DNA of 64,000 nt from Armatimonadota bacterium (GCA_018268395.1 JAFDWQ010000001.1:834644-898643); one strand, 5' to 3'; counted from the stretch's first letter, positions 27,660-36,759 are shown. The notes: generated by a model not told the origin, from the sequence alone. Made by a program: numbers and translations.

Positions 27660-28844
27660 TCAAGGCCCCTTGGACGTGCCCCGGAGAGCGCGGTCTTCGG
27701 CCATCATCTGCAGCCTGGTCGCATACGCCTTGGCGCGGTCGTCGGAAGGGGACATCCGCTCGTCCCACTTGCGATAGACCTGATAGTCGGCGAAACCCTT
27801 CCTGACCGCCTTGACCTCCCAGTCGAACTCGAACGACCCGCGGCCGTGGCCCAGTTCGCCGACGTCGAATCCGCTCGCGCTCTTGTTCTTCACGCCCAAG
27901 CCTTGCGAGTCGAAGGTACATGGGGTCAAGGTCACCGTGATCCCCCGTGCCTCCGCCAAAGCGGAAAAGTGGTGGGGCAACGAGACGTGGGCGCGACCAT
28001 CGACCAACCTCCCCGTGCCGCGCAGGTACATCGCCGCCTCCGGCCCTTCGATACACGCGTAGACGATGTCGCGCTGCGGGTCGTCGGGATCCGGTTCGAC
28101 GAAGTTCTTCACGGTCGCGCTCAAGGTCGTCTTGCGCTGGGAATCGATGACCCACGACCCGCCGATAAAGCTGTCCCGCTCCAAGACCATACGGTCCTCC
28201 CGCATGCCCGTGAAGTGGCCCAAATTCGGCCGTCCCATCCTGAGGAGGAAATAGAAGAGATCAGAGGAAGGCGACCCGTTCGAATCGTAGAACTGGATCT
28301 TGTTCCCGCCCTTCATCTGAACGTTTCCGAAGAACCACGCGGCGTCTCCGCCCGGAACCGTGTTCTCCGCGATGACGCCCGGAGTCCCGAACACGGTGCT
28401 CCGCCCCTGCACCCCGACTCCCGACGAGGAATTGGACTGGCCGAACACTCCCGTGTTGCCTAAACCGCGGACTCCGAAGCCACCGGCGGCCCGAGACTCG
28501 CCGTAGACGCCGCTGCCGCCGCCGCTCATGGCCGTGGCCGTTCCGCGGACCCCGAGCCCGTCCGGCCCCGCCGAACTGAAACTGCCTCCCAAATTGCCCG
28601 GAGAAGCCGTCGTGCTGTTACCGACCACCGGGATCGTGCCGTTCGAGGCCTGTTGGACGAAGACCTGCCCCGCACGGAAGGTGCCCTTGATGTTCGCGTG
28701 TCCCGCCTGCGCCGCTCCAGGTGTGACGTCTTGCAAGAACACGTTGCCGACGACCGCTGGGGCCCCGCCGGCAAGAGCGATGCCCGCTAACGCCAAAGCG
28801 GCGGTCGAGACGAAGACAATGGGGACGCCAGGTTTTCTGCTCAT
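27660..28844 (-). CDS. Secreted surface protein with GVxG repeats and a conserved C-terminal domain
   Basis: 394 residues. A signal peptide (about 25 residues) is followed by a Gly-rich zone with repeated GVRG / GVYG / GVFG / GVQG units (residues 95-155), resembling tail-fibre or trimeric-adhesin collars. The C-terminal domain (IVYACIEGPEAAMYLRGTG, then VSLPHHFSALAEARGITV and FDWEVKAVRKGF) resembles domains I associate with uncharacterised secreted proteins of related phyla. The function is unknown; an adhesin or stalk is one reading. AGGAAG lies 5 nt before the start, so it has a leader. Confidence 0.65.
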   Translation of the reverse strand: MSRKPGVPIVFVSTAALALAGIALAGGAPAVVGNVFLQDVTPGAAQAGHANIKGTFRAGQVFVQQASNGTIPVVGNSTTASPGNLGGSFSSAGPDGLGVRGTATAMSGGGSGVYGESRAAGGFGVRGLGNTGVFGQSNSSSGVGVQGRSTVFGTPGVIAENTVPGGDAAWFFGNVQMKGGNKIQFYDSNGSPSSDLFYFLLRMGRPNLGHFTGMREDRMVLERDSFIGGSWVIDSQRKTTLSATVKNFVEPDPDDPQRDIVYACIEGPEAAMYLRGTGRLVDGRAHVSLPHHFSALAEARGITVTLTPCTFDSQGLGVKNKSASGFDVGELGHGRGSFEFDWEVKAVRKGFADYQVYRKWDERMSPSDDRAKAYATRLQMMAEDRALRGTSKGP

Positions 28845-28900: not shown

Positions 28901-29170
28901 TCAGATATCGCGCTCCAAAGTCCTGAGCTTCCCTGGGCGCAGGGTGAACCACACGACCAGGAACGCACCGACGAGCACGCCCGCCCCAAGGCCTTGCGTC
29001 ACGCCCAGGCCGATCCCGGTCGGGACAGGATCGACCGGGCCGTCGAAGACGGCGACGTAGTAACCCGGAACGGCAAGGCCGAGCAACAGGCCGACGAGGC
29101 CGCCGCCGGTTCCGAAAGCGACGGTCGCCACCGCGATCAGCGCCAACCCCTCCCACGGTCCTCTGATCAT
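28901..29170 (-). CDS. Small two-helix membrane protein, unknown
   Basis: 89 residues. Two long hydrophobic helices with Gly-rich faces (about residues 8-35 and 50-75) end in a basic tail, RPGKLRTLERDI. No family is recognised. A GGGGAG-like site lies before the ATG. It is 56 nt upstream of the surface-protein gene on the same strand and may be co-transcribed with it. Confidence 0.5.
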   Translation of the reverse strand: MIRGPWEGLALIAVATVAFGTGGGLVGLLLGLAVPGYYVAVFDGPVDPVPTGIGLGVTQGLGAGVLVGAFLVVWFTLRPGKLRTLERDI

Positions 29171-31547: not shown

Positions 31548-32423
31548 CTAGACCCCGACTACGCCTAACTCCGCCACGGGCGTGTCCTGTCCCGTGGTGA
31601 CGTTGACGAACCGCACTCCGCAGGCGTACCAGCCCGGCTGTGCGGGGACGGTGGCCTCGAGCCCGCCCTGCGTGAACGCGACGAACTTCTGATGGCGGTA
31701 CTTGTCGCGATAGGAGCGACAGTTCCGCCCCGGCAGGCGTTGGAGGAGGAGCTCGGTCACGACGCCCGAGGAGTTGGGGCGGTCGGCGGAGAAAAGGATT
31801 CCCAGCCCTGGAGAAGCTTGGCGTGGCTCGGCAGTGGCACTGCACGGCTTAGCGATGGCATTGCCTGGCTCTGCCGAGGCTTTGCGTGGCTTAGCGACGG
31901 CTTTGATTTGGCATGGAGTCTTGGATTCGTCAGCAGCCACTGCAGGGCCCGGCATCGCTGCTGTAGAGCCATGCATCGGTTCCCCAGAGCCATGCAAAGC
32001 CATTGCAGTGCTATGCAAAGCGCTATCTGCAGCCTGTACCGCCACCACCACGCTGTCCCCGAAGAACGGGTTGCCCGGCGGGAGGGGAGGGGCGGCGGAA
32101 GGGTCGAGCTGGAGGAGCTTGGCGTAGAGGCCGGTAAAGACGTTCATGGCCTTCGGCACTCGGGGCAGGCCGCTCTCGGGGTCGGTGACGGCGAGGCCGG
32201 CCGCATAGCGGCGCCAGGCTTCGGCGAGGACCGGGTCGAGCCCGCTCCAGACGGCGACGGCCTTCGTCATGCGGATGCGGTTCTGCTGTTGGACCCCGGT
32301 CTGCGGGTTGTTGCGGCGCGGACGGTTGCGCACGACGACCCCGCCCGAGGTACGGACGTAGACCACGTTCCCGTTCTTGCCGCTGAGGCTGCTCCCCAAC
32401 CCGCCGAGGACGAACTTCGCCAT
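31548..32423 (-). CDS. DUF6266-like / phage-structural-like protein with a heptapeptide repeat insert
   Basis: 291 residues without a signal peptide. The N-terminus (GSSLSGKNGNVVYVRTSGG, then RRNNPQTGVQQQNRIRM and WSGLDPVLAEAWRRYAAG) follows the GK.GN..vR....NP.T..Q...R..F pattern. I associate that pattern with DUF6266-like and phage virion or tail-associated proteins. Residues about 130-200 are a degenerate heptapeptide repeat (units like AKPRKAS, AEPGNAI, AKPCSAT) encoded by a 21-bp minisatellite. The end (GVVTELLLQRL, VPAQPGWYACGVRFVNVTTGQDTPV) matches the gene at 36079, so the two are paralogues. The family link is from memory of motifs. Confidence 0.6.
   Translation of the reverse strand: MAKFVLGGLGSSLSGKNGNVVYVRTSGGVVVRNRPRRNNPQTGVQQQNRIRMTKAVAVWSGLDPVLAEAWRRYAAGLAVTDPESGLPRVPKAMNVFTGLYAKLLQLDPSAAPPLPPGNPFFGDSVVVAVQAADSALHSTAMALHGSGEPMHGSTAAMPGPAVAADESKTPCQIKAVAKPRKASAEPGNAIAKPCSATAEPRQASPGLGILFSADRPNSSGVVTELLLQRLPGRNCRSYRDKYRHQKFVAFTQGGLEATVPAQPGWYACGVRFVNVTTGQDTPVAELGVVGV
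31825..32034. repeat. Degenerate 21-bp tandem repeat (10 units)
   Basis: Ten consecutive 21-nt units read on the plus strand, e.g. GGCTCGGCAGTGGCACTGC.., GGCTTAGCGATGGCATTGC.., GGCTCTGCCGAGGCTTTGC.., and later TGCATCGGTTCCCCAGAGC.. and TGCAAAGCCATTGCAGTGC... The period is a multiple of three, and on the minus strand it encodes heptapeptides inside the gene 31548-32423. Units are diverged and differ most in the middle (31909-31950). Confidence 0.7.
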
Positions 32424-32491
32424 TGCTGTTTTGATTCTCGGCTTCTGGACGCCCACCCTCCACCTCTCGATCTTCGGCTCTCCTCCTGCCT

Positions 32492-32513
32492 TCCTCCTGT
32501 CGCGACAGGAGGA
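32492..32513. repeat. Perfect 22-bp palindrome
   Basis: TCCTCCTGTC-GC-GACAGGAGGA reads identically on both strands, with no central spacer (centre TCGCGA). It lies between the divergent paralogue gene (minus) and the nuclease-like gene (plus), next to the 11-bp repeats. Confidence 0.85.
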
Positions 32514-32515
32514 GA

Positions 32516-32548
32516 ACAGGAGGATCACAGGAGGATCACAGGAGGATG
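32516..32548 (+). repeat. Three tandem 11-bp repeats (iteron-like)
   Basis: ACAGGAGGATC, ACAGGAGGATC and ACAGGAGGATG follow one another without spacing at 32516, 32527 and 32538. The right arm of the adjacent palindrome (ACAGGAGGA) is a fourth partial copy. An 11-bp period places each copy on the same helix face, as for protein-binding iterons. Confidence 0.7.
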
Positions 32549-32668
32549 CAAGGTGTTGGCAGGCCCTTTAACCGATGTCAATGAAGAGCTGTCACGACCA
32601 GGAATGCACCGACGAGCACAGGACCAAAGGCAATTCTGGCGAACCGCTGAGTCAAAGGGCCGAACGTC

Positions 32669-32674
32669 TATACT
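32669..32674 (+). promoter_or_regulatory. -10 box TATACT for the PD-(D/E)xK gene
   Basis: TATACT with 6 nt (CTCGCG) to the ATG at 32681, predicting a leaderless mRNA. Confidence 0.55.
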
Positions 32675-32680
32675 CTCGCG

Positions 32681-33424
32681 ATGGCCAAGTATGTGGACAC
32701 AGCCAAGCAACGCATTAGCGACGGGCTGAAGAAGTACACGAAGATCATTGAGCAGGCCAAAAACCGGGGCGTCAATGAAGCGGATACACGGGACATCGTC
32801 AAGGCCGTCCTGGGCGACGTCCTAGGTTATGATCCATTCTTCGAAGTGACGGGCGAGTACAGCGTCAAAGGGCAGTACGCCGACTTTGGAGTAAAGCTCG
32901 GCGATGAGATCCGCTTCTTTGTCGAAGTCAAGTCTGTCGGAACAAAGCTTGAGGAAAAGCAGATGTTCCAGATCATTGGCTACGCCGCCAACCAAGGCCA
33001 CGACTGGGGGCTACTGACCAATGGAGACGAGTGGCAAGTCTACCGGCTCTTCACGGGAGCAGACCGAGGCACAGAACGGGTCTTCAGCGTTCGGTTAACG
33101 GACGCCGAAACGCCGTTGAAGGACAAAGTCGAAACCTTGTTCCTGGTATCGAAGGAAGGCTTTCGCGCCAATGCGCTCCAAGACCATTGGTCGCGCGCGC
33201 AAGTGCTCAATCCGTTAAAGGTCGCTGAAAAGCTCTGTGAAGAAAAGGTGCTCTTGGCCATTCGCACTGAGCTACAACGCGGAATCGGCTTCACTCTTTC
33301 GGTCGACGCAGTGTGCGCCGTACTGTTGAATCAAGTCATCCGAGGTGATATTGCGGACAAGATCAAGTCAGGCGCGAACGCGACAACGAAAAAGCCTCCT
33401 GCGAAACAGGAGCCAGTCAAGTGA
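32681..33424 (+). CDS. Stand-alone HsdR-N-like PD-(D/E)xK nuclease domain protein
   Basis: 247 residues. The core shows the restriction-endonuclease fold site: Asp68 in QYADFGV, then Glu82-x-Lys84 in FFVEVKS, and a following Q-rich helix, QMFQIIGYAANQG. This matches the N-terminal nuclease domain of type I restriction HsdR subunits, where it cuts DNA. Here no helicase follows and no HsdM or HsdS gene is near. The C-terminal part is a helical region ending in a Lys-rich tail (TTKKPPAKQEPVK). It may be a defence or mobile-element nuclease working alone or with a distant partner. It is the first gene of the lower-GC island. Confidence 0.7.
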   Translation: MAKYVDTAKQRISDGLKKYTKIIEQAKNRGVNEADTRDIVKAVLGDVLGYDPFFEVTGEYSVKGQYADFGVKLGDEIRFFVEVKSVGTKLEEKQMFQIIGYAANQGHDWGLLTNGDEWQVYRLFTGADRGTERVFSVRLTDAETPLKDKVETLFLVSKEGFRANALQDHWSRAQVLNPLKVAEKLCEEKVLLAIRTELQRGIGFTLSVDAVCAVLLNQVIRGDIADKIKSGANATTKKPPAKQEPVK

Positions 33425-33523
33425 AGCCGGATGTTTGGTTTGTGCGCTGCCCCGAGACTGCGAAAGCCTCCTCAATCCGAACGCGACAGTGACGAGCCTG
33501 GAGGCATCGTCCTTCTGAAAGGA

Positions 33524-34525
33524 TCAACTCGGGACACGGAACAGCTTGTAGACATCGGATTCCTTGAAGACGAGATACTGTCCGGACGCACTGGCTGCAA
33601 ACATCTTTCCCTTTCGGATGTCGGTGAGGGTTCCACCTTTGGCGAGGCAAGTCCTGTCGGCGGGATGGGCCGAAACGGGATTCGGGCCTGTGAGGAGAAG
33701 GCCAAGTGGCGTGAATGCGGCCCGCACGAAAGCACCGCGATAAGACACCAACGCCCTTCCGCTTTGGGTGTACTCCGTCGCGCCTCCCGAACTGTGGGCG
33801 ACGAAGTGCCCGGTATACGGGCTCCATCCGATGACGTTCAGGTCGCCGCCACTGAACGTGCCCAGAGGGCTCATGACCGCACCCTGGCCTTCCTTCACCG
33901 AAAATCGGACGAGGCTCCACCGCTCGGAGGCGTCCGAAGGCTTGCGAGCAAGAAAGAAGTCGGCGGAACCGTTTGAACGTCGCTTGGCGCCGAAGCAGAC
34001 GACCCTTTCACCTTGGCGAGTCCAAAAGCCCGAGTCGACGTTCGGCGGAAACGTCCGTCGCGCGAGATGAACGATCGAACAGGCGTAGAACGGTCTACGT
34101 GGCGTAGCTGAAGTCAGGAACGGGCCTCCTGCTGCTAAGAGCGTGTCCTTATCTGGTACCGATTGAATCCTCAGGTGTGGTGTTCGACTGTGCTTCAGCG
34201 CGTTCTCCCAGGAATAGGAGAGGCCTTTCTTAGGGCCGTATGCCGACTGGCTGACCGTCATGGAGAACGGTCGGAGCCGGCCCTGTTCGACCCGCATCCC
34301 GCTGAAAAGGCTGTCTTCGCCCACAATCCTTTGGTTCTTGACATCATAAACGGCGAAGCGGGCGAAACCGGAGTAGATTCGATCCGCCTGATCTCCTACA
34401 AGGGGTCGGAGATTGTAGTTCTCAAAGATCGGCGCAGGCTCCTTGGCCTGCATATCAGCAACATGAACGAATTCAATGGGCTGTATGGAGTAGGAGATGG
34501 ACGCGTAGAACATTACCGAGAGCAT
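33524..34525 (-). CDS. Unrecognised protein, possibly beta-propeller-like
   Basis: 333 residues, no family recognised. The N-terminus (MLSVMFYASISYSIQ) is mildly hydrophobic and could be a signal sequence. The body has alternating strands (FAVYDVKNQRIVGED, VIGWSPYTGHFVAHSS, MFAASASGQYLVFKE) that look like WD- or propeller-type blades. No catalytic motif is seen. Base composition and codon use are less GC-rich than in flanking core genes, which suggests transfer. It lies 9 nt downstream of the next minus-strand gene, so the two probably form an operon. Confidence 0.55.
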   Translation of the reverse strand: MLSVMFYASISYSIQPIEFVHVADMQAKEPAPIFENYNLRPLVGDQADRIYSGFARFAVYDVKNQRIVGEDSLFSGMRVEQGRLRPFSMTVSQSAYGPKKGLSYSWENALKHSRTPHLRIQSVPDKDTLLAAGGPFLTSATPRRPFYACSIVHLARRTFPPNVDSGFWTRQGERVVCFGAKRRSNGSADFFLARKPSDASERWSLVRFSVKEGQGAVMSPLGTFSGGDLNVIGWSPYTGHFVAHSSGGATEYTQSGRALVSYRGAFVRAAFTPLGLLLTGPNPVSAHPADRTCLAKGGTLTDIRKGKMFAASASGQYLVFKESDVYKLFRVPS

Positions 34526-34534
34526 ATTGACCTT

Positions 34535-35701
34535 CTACTGAGGATTGAAGACATCTTCGAAAGCTAATCCCGACAGTCCAATACTGAATGGGGTTGCAGA
34601 TCCACCAGCGTTTGCTACGGAAACCCTCAAAATAGTCGGAACCTCGCTAGGTTCAAACGAGAGCAAATTGGCTGTACCATCTTCATCCGAGCAGTATTCG
34701 ATCCAACTGTGCTCGGCCCCGGGATCATTCGGATCGTTGAACGTAATCGCAGGCACTCCACGAGGTTGCCATGCATTAGGCAATTCAATTCTTCCCGACC
34801 CAAAGTACGCCTCACCCGTGTTGCGGGCAATTGCGGCTACGTCCAATGGATATGATTGACCCCCCGAATTGATGATTTCGAAGTCATAGTAGAGGTTTGC
34901 TCCGTAGCATCCAACGTTTCCACCAGGAGACACCCACGTTGCGCCAGAGCTTTCCCCAAACGCATTTGATCCGTGTTCGGGCCCGGTTTTTTCGCAGACA
35001 GAAAGATACCTTGGGTTTGAGTGTAAGATTGGCTTAACATCGTATGTGCCCCCTGCAAACGATGCGCTGGAGTACTGCCAACATCCTCTGACATGATTAT
35101 CCGTTGACGCCGCCGGATCCTCCTGCCAGGATCCGCCCAGGGACGCAGAATTAGAGACGGACGACCGTACTTGTAGGTTAGCGGCCGTAGCTACCACGAC
35201 CGAAAACTCGGTAACGCAGGCAATCAGCTCGTTGTTCTGAACGGGAATGTTCCAGAGCATGTTCTCGGAAGTAGACAAGGTTTGAGATCCGATCACAAAT
35301 GGATCCAATGTTCCGTACAGCTGGGCTTTGGAAAGGCATAATCCAGTTGCAACGTAACTACCCGCCGCAACACCGAGTTGGCGTTTCTGATTGTAGATTG
35401 TGCCAAATCCCGTTGATACGCTTAACGCGAGTTGAAAGTAGAGTGTAGATCCCGACGAGTTCAGATGCCAGGTGAACACTCGGACGTTCCGAACGGTGAA
35501 CGTGGAAAGTGAACATTTGTGCAAGGTATGGGTTTGGACATTTCCCACTGTTCGGAGATTCGATAGCTCGGGCACCGTTTCGGGACTGTTGGAGACGACC
35601 AAGGCAGGCCCCCAAACAGAAGTCGGGCCCTCAGGAGACTCCGCAGGAATTGGATTTGCGGGATCGACATGACTAACATAATTGCTCTGCCCACATGACA
35701 T
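34535..35701 (-). CDS. Unrecognised Cys-containing beta-rich protein
   Basis: 388 residues. No signal peptide is evident from this start (MSCGQSNYVSHVDPAN), though the N-terminus is unsure. The sequence is rich in Ser, Thr, Asn and Gly with about nine Cys, and looks like an extracellular or virion-type beta protein (TFTVRNVRVFTWHLN, YDFEIINSGGQSYPLDV, PTILRVSVANAGGSATPFSIGLSG). No family is recognised. It is the lowest-GC gene in the window by eye, which fits recent acquisition. It is paired with the 333-residue gene. Confidence 0.5.
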   Translation of the reverse strand: MSCGQSNYVSHVDPANPIPAESPEGPTSVWGPALVVSNSPETVPELSNLRTVGNVQTHTLHKCSLSTFTVRNVRVFTWHLNSSGSTLYFQLALSVSTGFGTIYNQKRQLGVAAGSYVATGLCLSKAQLYGTLDPFVIGSQTLSTSENMLWNIPVQNNELIACVTEFSVVVATAANLQVRSSVSNSASLGGSWQEDPAASTDNHVRGCWQYSSASFAGGTYDVKPILHSNPRYLSVCEKTGPEHGSNAFGESSGATWVSPGGNVGCYGANLYYDFEIINSGGQSYPLDVAAIARNTGEAYFGSGRIELPNAWQPRGVPAITFNDPNDPGAEHSWIEYCSDEDGTANLLSFEPSEVPTILRVSVANAGGSATPFSIGLSGLAFEDVFNPQ

Positions 35702-36078
35702 TGACTTATTCTACATTGGTTCCCCGGGGTGAGCGGGCCCATTTGGGGCGGCACGTCCAATTCAGAATGACCTCCCGATGCGTGGCATCGCTCAAACGGG
35801 ATGGCCCGTACCCGTTCGCACTCCCGTCCGTGACAAGAGCCGACAAAGAGCCAGGGAAAGGTCGCCTGAATGGGCGAACGTCGCCCGGGCAGGTCGCAGC
35901 GGCCAATGCTGACCTGCCCACACAACTACCAGGATTCTCTGATCACACCTCAAATCACACTCCAAAGTACGGAAGGAACTCCTCGTGAGTCCGGGCTCAT
36001 GGCCGAAGGATCGTAGGCGAGAGCCGATCGAGACCGTCGGAACGAAGCGGGCGGGCTTGCGAGGATGCGTATAAGAAC
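35702..36078. other. Intergenic stretch with no supported gene
   Basis: 377 nt at the right edge of the lower-GC island. Short open frames on both strands have no family signature, no ribosome site, and amino-acid content typical of shadows. No hairpin with a T-tract was seen. It should hold the promoter of the 388-residue gene and the boundary back to core-like GC. Confidence 0.4.
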
Positions 36079-36759
36079 ATGCCGATCTTCCACCCGGAAG
36101 GGTACTGCCAGGGCCTCAGCGGCCGCAACGGGAACCTGACCTACGAAACGACCGACAACGGGACGATCTTCTTCAACTTCAAGATGCCCGCCGACCCGAA
36201 CACTCCCGCACAGCAGACCGTGCGGAACGACTTCCGCAAGGCGAGCCAGACCTTCGAATCTTTGCCGAAGGCGAAGGTCGACGCCTGGAACTACGAGGCG
36301 GCCAAGCGTAAAAAGCGCAACGCCAACGGCCAGATGCGCAAGCAGAGCGGGCTGGCGTACTTCGTCCAGCTCTCCACGAAGTTCCTGCTCGTCTCGCCGA
36401 GCGGCACGATCCCGCAAGACCCTCCGACCTCGGAGTTCCTTGGCGACGTCCCGGTCATCACGGTCACGGCAGGGTCAGGCAAGCTGACTTACAACGCCAA
36501 TGTCCCGAATTCCGTCGGAGTCGTGACCGAGCTTGTTTACGAGCGCTTGGCGAACGGCAACCGCAAGCCGGGCAAAAAGTACAAGACGGGCGCTTACTTC
36601 GCTTTCGTGCTCGGCACATTGAGCAAGGACGTCACGGTGCCGCCGGGCTACTACGCGGCGGGCTACCGCTTCGTGAAGGTCGCGACCGGACAGGCGACGC
36701 CCGTCCAGCCGCTACCGGTCGGTCAGGTCACGATGGCCATCGCGAAGAAGGCGGCGTAA
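36079..36759 (+). CDS. DUF6266-like / phage-structural-like protein, paralogue of 31548-32423
   Basis: 226 residues. The N-terminus has GLSGRNGNLTYETTDNG, PADPNTPAQQTVRNDFRKA and a Trp/Lys-rich helix, the same layout as the gene at 31548. The C-terminal part (GVVTELVYERLANGNRKPGKKYK, then VPPGYYAAGYRFVKVATGQATPV) aligns with its paralogue motif by motif. It lacks the heptapeptide repeat insert. Family assignment by motif memory is tentative. It faces the paralogue across the island. Confidence 0.6.
   Translation: MPIFHPEGYCQGLSGRNGNLTYETTDNGTIFFNFKMPADPNTPAQQTVRNDFRKASQTFESLPKAKVDAWNYEAAKRKKRNANGQMRKQSGLAYFVQLSTKFLLVSPSGTIPQDPPTSEFLGDVPVITVTAGSGKLTYNANVPNSVGVVTELVYERLANGNRKPGKKYKTGAYFAFVLGTLSKDVTVPPGYYAAGYRFVKVATGQATPVQPLPVGQVTMAIAKKAA

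Follow-up and report, generated by a model that had tools for sequence, protein, structure and literature searches.

Outward-facing pairs of paralogous genes, one with an 11-bp repeat array upstream, bound defence islands in Armatimonadota

How do defence systems gather in islands and spread without visible mobility genes? This question is raised by a locus in an Armatimonadota bacterium (GCA_018268395.1), lying within a stretch of 64,000 nucleotides (JAFDWQ010000001.1:834644-898643) that we refer to as the window. At positions 31548-36759, an initial annotation had proposed a possible mobile island, in which two paralogous, phage-structural-like genes face away from each other around an insert of lower G+C content (GC) holding a nuclease. 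We find that this pair is one case of a repeated architecture, which the annotation had not foreseen: paralogous genes of two classes, here termed A and B, lie at the two ends of the island, with an array of 11-bp repeats at the A end. The island reads as A leftward, array, cargo and B rightward:

31548-36759: the whole window island
31548-32423, minus strand: boundary gene A, 291 amino acids, in clade A of the tree; the A class was modelled by AlphaFold
31800-32027 (boundaries approximate), minus strand: hinge insert of gene A, about 76 amino acids, low complexity with a 7-amino-acid period, from the alignment and tandem repeats
32481-32547, no strand: 11-bp array upstream of A, in the divergent intergenic region between A and cargo
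32681-33424, plus strand: cargo gene for a stand-alone HsdR-N-like nuclease, 247 amino acids, oriented towards B
33524-34525, minus strand: cargo gene for an orphan protein, 333 amino acids, without family
34535-35701, minus strand: cargo gene for an orphan protein, 388 amino acids, with eight cysteines and no confident family
36079-36759, plus strand: boundary gene B, 226 amino acids, in clade B of the tree

The two outward-facing genes are indeed paralogs. In BLASTP comparisons of window A with window B, the C-terminal blocks matched with an E value of 1e-17 (48% identity over 80 amino acids) and the N-terminal blocks with an E value of 1e-13; in an alignment of 13 paralogs the two proteins are 37% identical. 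Protein A contains, in order, an N-terminal domain with the motif SGKNGN, the repeat-rich hinge insert, a C-terminal domain resembling fibronectin type III (FN3) and a short C-terminus ending in LGVVGV, while B has the same domains minus the hinge insert, and a C-terminal tail ending in AIAKKAA. The composition of the insert was also as annotated: its GC is 0.51-0.61, compared with 0.62-0.68 around it, it contains neither an integrase nor a transposase, and profile searches returned an HsdR-N-like nuclease and two proteins without a confident family.

The window B protein matches 19 stretches of its own genome, corresponding to about 15 genes. Using a profile built from 13 paralogs of this genome, we found the family in 23 of the 85 genomes of the same bacterial family and in 31 of the 291 genomes of the phylum. 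The distribution is patchy, most genomes having no copy and others up to 24 matches, and the named relatives belong to Fimbriimonadaceae and other Armatimonadota metagenome-assembled genomes. The family had no significant match in Pfam or PHROGs, and sequence searches against solved structures gave nothing meaningful. The AlphaFold model of the A class is good (pLDDT 90.6), that of the B class being poorer; the A model predicts a three-stranded sheet and three helices, followed by the FN3-like domain. The C-terminal half of A matched fibronectin-III domains structurally with Z scores of 8-9.4 and root-mean-square deviations of 2.3-3.5 over 81-95 aligned residues. DUF6266 (Pfam PF19781), a family with an N-terminal SG..G hairpin, an Ig-like C-terminal half and many copies per Bacteroidota genome, resembles A and B in its SG..G N-terminus, its Ig-like C-terminal half and its multiple copies, the relation being unproven. 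Membership was rejected, as the best match (10.6 bits, E 0.68, for one copy only) lay below the cut-off of 23.4 bits; we found no mention of DUF6266 in open-access papers. Low-complexity inserts occupy the hinge between the two domains of A in several copies (window 31800-32027, L019, L021, L023 and L025), the type of repeat differing per copy (for example PLTPxPLSP-like, TTDxRxP-like or the 7-amino-acid AxAxPxx); it seems that the insertion of repeats is either tolerated at the hinge or attracted by it.

After fragments were merged there were 148 A/B copies, and those within 16 kb of each other were regarded as neighbours. Among neighbours, 29 pairs faced outwards, one inwards and six lay on the same strand (binomial P 4e-12 against 1/4). 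In this genome and its relatives the outward arrangement is therefore beyond chance. Pairs further apart than 16 kb showed no such excess (1/32 outward). The two classes can be told apart by their ends: copies of class A stop just after the FN3-like domain, and those of class B carry an extra tail of 6-24 residues ending in K/R-K-A-A or close to it. The outward pairs consist of one A and one B in 27 of 29 cases (P 1e-7), and there was no pair of two B genes. One pair of two A genes (G000 C1:78534/90635) was rejected as an island and regarded as a chance pair because ordinary genes lie between them, and a second locus (L120) is A+A by its tails, yet its left gene groups with clade B in the tree. 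On a tree of the core columns the A/B label changes twice, compared with a mean of 23.7 changes after shuffling. Moreover, distances between A genes mirror those between their B partners (Spearman 0.487; none of 5000 permutations was as good), and the nearest relatives of A/B copies are mostly in other genomes rather than in their own. From the separate clades and mirror trees it follows that A and B are two old sister classes within a single undescribed protein family, inherited together.

Three further observations concern the surroundings of these genes. Just past the stop codons of A and B no common sequence was seen. Contigs often end at or near A or B (the end of G017:C2, both ends of G090:C18, and G090:C12, G085:C1, G078:C84 and C87), as would happen with junctions that are repeated or that vary within the population. 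In G013, next to a solo A gene (L138, 3149-5126), several small genes form a block that is present twice, apparently identical at the protein level.

The genes between A and B differ in orientation, composition and content from those outside. Taking B as the right end, 152 of the 175 cargo genes (87%) are co-directional with B, compared with 96 of 171 genes outside the islands, which show no bias; the gene adjoining A is divergent from A in 24 of 26 islands. The mean GC of the cargo is 0.586, compared with 0.635 for the flanks, and is the lower of the two in 25 of 27 islands, whereas A and B themselves are host-like (0.644 and 0.635). Solo copies of A or B showed no dip in GC. At a threshold of 1e-10, 149 cargo proteins matched 455 PADLOC models, as against 56 for 142 control flank proteins; among the 25 models listed for the control flanks, each matches a single protein. 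The Pfam families of the cargo include ResIII, Cas1, N6_Mtase, DUF2130, Cas3, Cas7, Methylase_S, Eco57I, HepT and PIN, while the control flanks yielded TPR, tRNA synthetase and similar families. Individual islands carry a CRISPR I-E system (L125), other Cas operons (L107, L113, L127), type I restriction (L123), a fused type II system (L117), a DRT-type reverse transcriptase (L124), a SAVED effector (L104) or an HKD+Snf2 helicase (L103), among others; type IIG restriction and Cas3/Cas8e also occur among the cargo. By our own count, made partly via gene order and similarity between islands, recognisable defence genes are present in 18 of 27. No tyrosine integrase (Phage_integrase) was found inside any island of six genomes. 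These are defence islands, in which anti-phage genes are clustered above background.

These findings bear on the idea of a phage or satellite remnant, in which A and B would be virion proteins and the island a decayed provirus. Tail proteins commonly have FN3-like domains, and the fold matches included structures of phage tails. However, in addition to the lack of significant PHROG matches, a pattern-limited viral scan of IMG/VR with the B-class alignment found no relative, no integrase, packaging, portal or structural genes were recognised in the cargo, and co-evolving outward pairs surround unrelated defence operons. We therefore rejected a phage satellite or prophage; this origin is largely refuted and scarcely credible. 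With no phage family behind it, and with a model showing a beta/helical N-domain and an FN3-like C-domain, the label of phage-structural-like did not hold up. As for the annotation's wider suggestion of satellite or defence cargo, the low-GC, foreign character and the defence-type content of the insert were borne out, and the satellite was not.

We then consider the array. Directly upstream of most A genes there are direct repeats with a period of 11 bp. In many cases inverted units come first, and the two sets of units together make up an imperfect palindrome of about 90-130 bp. In the window, two inverted 11-bp units (32481-32502) are followed by four direct units (32503-32546) with the approximate consensus ACAGGAGGATC, and the centre is a perfect 20-bp palindrome (CCTCCTGTCG followed by CGACAGGAGG; 32493-32512). 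The cargo contains one further near-copy of the unit (35116-35126). When the best period among 6-16 was determined upstream of each gene, it was 11 for 24/27 A genes in islands and 23/25 other A genes (47 of 52 in all); among the B genes of islands this held for only 1 of 26, and among other genes for 76 of 428. In 41 copies not used before, period 11 was found in 20 of 26 A and 3 of 15 B genes, and was weaker in more distant lineages. The unit varies from copy to copy; closely related A copies share 10/11 and 7.8/11 positions, compared with a background of about 5.9. Because 11 bp is about one turn of the DNA helix, a protein bound to such an array would lie along a single face of the DNA. 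Nearby, the motif GCCGA occurs 15-20 nt before the start of 49 of 77 A genes; for B genes the distance is mostly 60-80 nt, and CTAAAG is found further upstream in some of them. Possibly A and B have a promoter type in common, the A transcripts being leaderless.

An array in this position could mean that the system is a regulatory module and nothing else, in which A is a one-component regulator that acts on phased operators to control itself and the divergent defence operon, in the manner of other regulators at defence loci, B is a co-regulated partner protein, neither takes part in transfer and the cargo moves by ordinary means. A purely regulatory role of A is the main rival to the reading that we favour (below). 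It would fit the location of the array beside the A promoter in the divergent A-cargo intergenic region, the divergence of the adjoining gene in 24/26 islands, and the retention of arrays by solo A genes without cargo, as expected of an autoregulator. There is also a precedent, since the operators to which CarH tetramers bind consist of 11-bp direct repeats, three or four in tandem (PMC9304148). Such a module leaves unexplained, however, why a paralog, B, stands at the far end, and why A and B are co-inherited at different chromosomal sites and cargo is swapped between them. We regard it as rather unlikely.

The swapping is best seen in two islands, in genomes G010 (L104) and G090 (L122), that have a right-hand neighbour and related A and B genes in common but carry unrelated cargo. 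Their similarity ends about 66 bp upstream of A and restarts about 159 bp upstream of B. The converse is seen as well: three islands (L107, L113 and L127) hold related CRISPR-Cas cargo between A and B genes of different lineages. No other pair of islands shares chromosomal neighbours, so the islands are not a core defence hotspot at a fixed locus. At the site equivalent to that of the window, eight relatives have no A or B gene: in one congener (G001) an E1-type dehydrogenase gene adjoins the dTDP-sugar operon, and in another (G003) different genes occupy the gap. The island is thus bounded by two paralogs and missing at the equivalent site in eight relatives, in line with the initial annotation, and neither a gene order conserved as core in relatives nor unrelated flanking genes emerged.

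The comparison of L104 with L122, where site, A and B are kept and the cargo between them is replaced, is also what would be expected if A and B were resident anchors, with cargo swapped via natural transformation and homologous recombination in A, B or their neighbours. The host-like GC of A and B, not shared by the cargo, agrees with this, and for the core defence hotspots of P. aeruginosa transfer via conserved flanks has been proposed (PMC10250203). However, the copies in the window genome are about 30-40% identical at the protein level, too little for recombination between sites, and anchors of this kind leave the arrays and the A/B heteropair unexplained. We consider this distinctly unlikely.

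Alternatively, A and B might form an autonomous mobile element, in which they would work on the palindromic arrays as a new kind of transposase-like pair and solo A genes would be minimal elements or remnants. Solo copies, together with pairs around cargo, recall insertion sequences and composite transposons, and the spread is patchy, with up to 24 matches per genome at sites that differ across genomes. In a small sample, 3 of 9 Y1-type (REP-associated) transposase genes lay no more than 650 bp from an A or B gene (G013:C1:1376029, G010:C1:1575656 and G000:C1:1520), and palindromes recur around one in L104. Against this, the predicted fold is FN3-like without a recognised catalytic domain, the B end lacks an array, neither terminal repeats nor duplicated targets were seen, and most islands have no transposase nearby. 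An autonomous element seems very unlikely.

We favour, with a probability of about 60%, the reading that the window holds one member of a recurring class of Armatimonadota defence islands, chiefly in its own family and order, in which A and B bound an exchangeable slot. Most likely, A binds its own private array as a nucleoprotein boundary and also controls its own promoter and that of the divergent cargo. On this model, the helically phased array with A bound to it would form one end of the slot and B the other, and anti-phage genes would enter, leave and move between them, probably transferring as a unit. Recombination might be carried out by an enzyme acting in trans, an idea prompted by the hint of Y1-type transposase genes near A/B, or by homologous recombination. 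A bolder version is tentative and, on balance, doubtful: that the paralogous FN3-domain pair constitutes a transfer platform for defence genes, a two-ended slot in which recombination at the array would bring in and exchange whole immune systems although the platform itself encodes no tyrosine integrase. In that case a private array for each A would allow many copies in one genome without cross-talk.

Several points weigh against the exchangeable slot. DNA binding by A is suggested only by the arrays, and its N-domain, barely tested and searched within the whole model, gave no clear fold match and no DNA-binding fold. Divergence of the array unit showed no significant overall correlation with that of A (Mantel P about 0.11). 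Homology between sister islands ends at the coding ends of A and B, which at 60-77% identity says little. We saw neither excision nor a circle, nor a duplicated target site, nor a site that was empty at the nucleotide level, and in a search with concatenated flanks the two neighbours of an island mapped far apart, unlinked, in a sister genome. In the window, only one of the three cargo genes is oriented towards B, and the match of the nuclease to Pfam HSDR_N_2 (E 4e-5) is just under the cut-off. Exact junctions were not obtained because the relatives are too diverged.

For the window cargo itself, the evidence of defence is that one weak nuclease match. Residues 1-228 of the nuclease match PHROG 17239 (E 2.5e-57), and its nearest annotated phage relative is a Thermus phage "restriction endonuclease" (33% identity over 88%). 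The 388-amino-acid orphan had no relative in viral contigs, and its coding signal is weak under host codon usage. The nuclease and the two orphans are candidate new defence genes that may act against phage.

Other features of the window lie outside this argument. A 27-bp direct repeat (96%) has near-identical copies at 28952-28978, in the reading frame of a small membrane protein, and at 32593-32619, where it separates A from the nuclease gene. Another repeat, about 60 bp long (TGACCTCCCGATGGGTGGC...CCGTTCGCAC; 35768-35820), is dispersed, with copies at several other places in the genome (L005, L006, L007); it matched nothing credible in Rfam, whose scan of the window returned only a tRNA. The gene at 27660-28844 encodes a secreted tail-fibre-like protein, apparently of a multi-copy family here and in the congener G003 (many DNA matches).

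The locus proved, as first suggested, a good candidate for an undescribed system: we found no description of such islands in open-access PMC, Pfam, PHROGs, NCBIfam or PADLOC, subscription literature being outside the scope. Its signature, an outward A+B pair with an 11-bp array at the A end, is searchable, flags such islands in a little-studied phylum, and makes unknown defence genes, the window's three among them, approachable through guilt by association. DNA binding by A, control of cargo and cargo exchange become directly testable.

How do these islands compare with known systems? The integron platform consists of IntI, attI and cassettes, with a tyrosine recombinase beside the insertion site. 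The A/B islands resemble it in having a divergent gene and a repeat-bearing site at one end, with cargo oriented away from there. Unlike IntI, A belongs to the tyrosine recombinases neither by family nor by model, the island is closed by B at the far end, and the cargo consists of multi-gene systems rather than cassettes; with no Phage_integrase in the islands of the six genomes and no significant Pfam match for A, an integron was rejected. In a composite transposon the flanks are near-identical insertion sequences coding for transposase. Here too, two related genes are inverted around cargo and solo copies occur elsewhere, but A and B are different, co-inherited classes without a transposase domain. 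Their separate clades, the 37% identity of the window pair and the absence of any transposase family led us to reject this identity as well. The operators of CarH/CarA likewise have tandem 11-bp direct repeats in the promoter region (PMC9304148), but Pfam recognised no MerR domain in A (the N-domain being barely tested by fold search), and the A array has a unit that differs per copy and is often head-to-head palindromic. The hotspots cDHS1 and cDHS2 of P. aeruginosa (PMC10250203) share with the A/B islands variable low-GC defence cargo, constant boundary genes and the lack of any single mobile element that would be obvious. Each of the two hotspots has a fixed position between core genes that are unrelated, whereas A and B are a dedicated two-class pair of paralogs found at many sites per genome with a repeat array. 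Defence islands as such were known already; a dispersed, co-inherited, two-class boundary pair with a private phased array is described in none of the sources covered.

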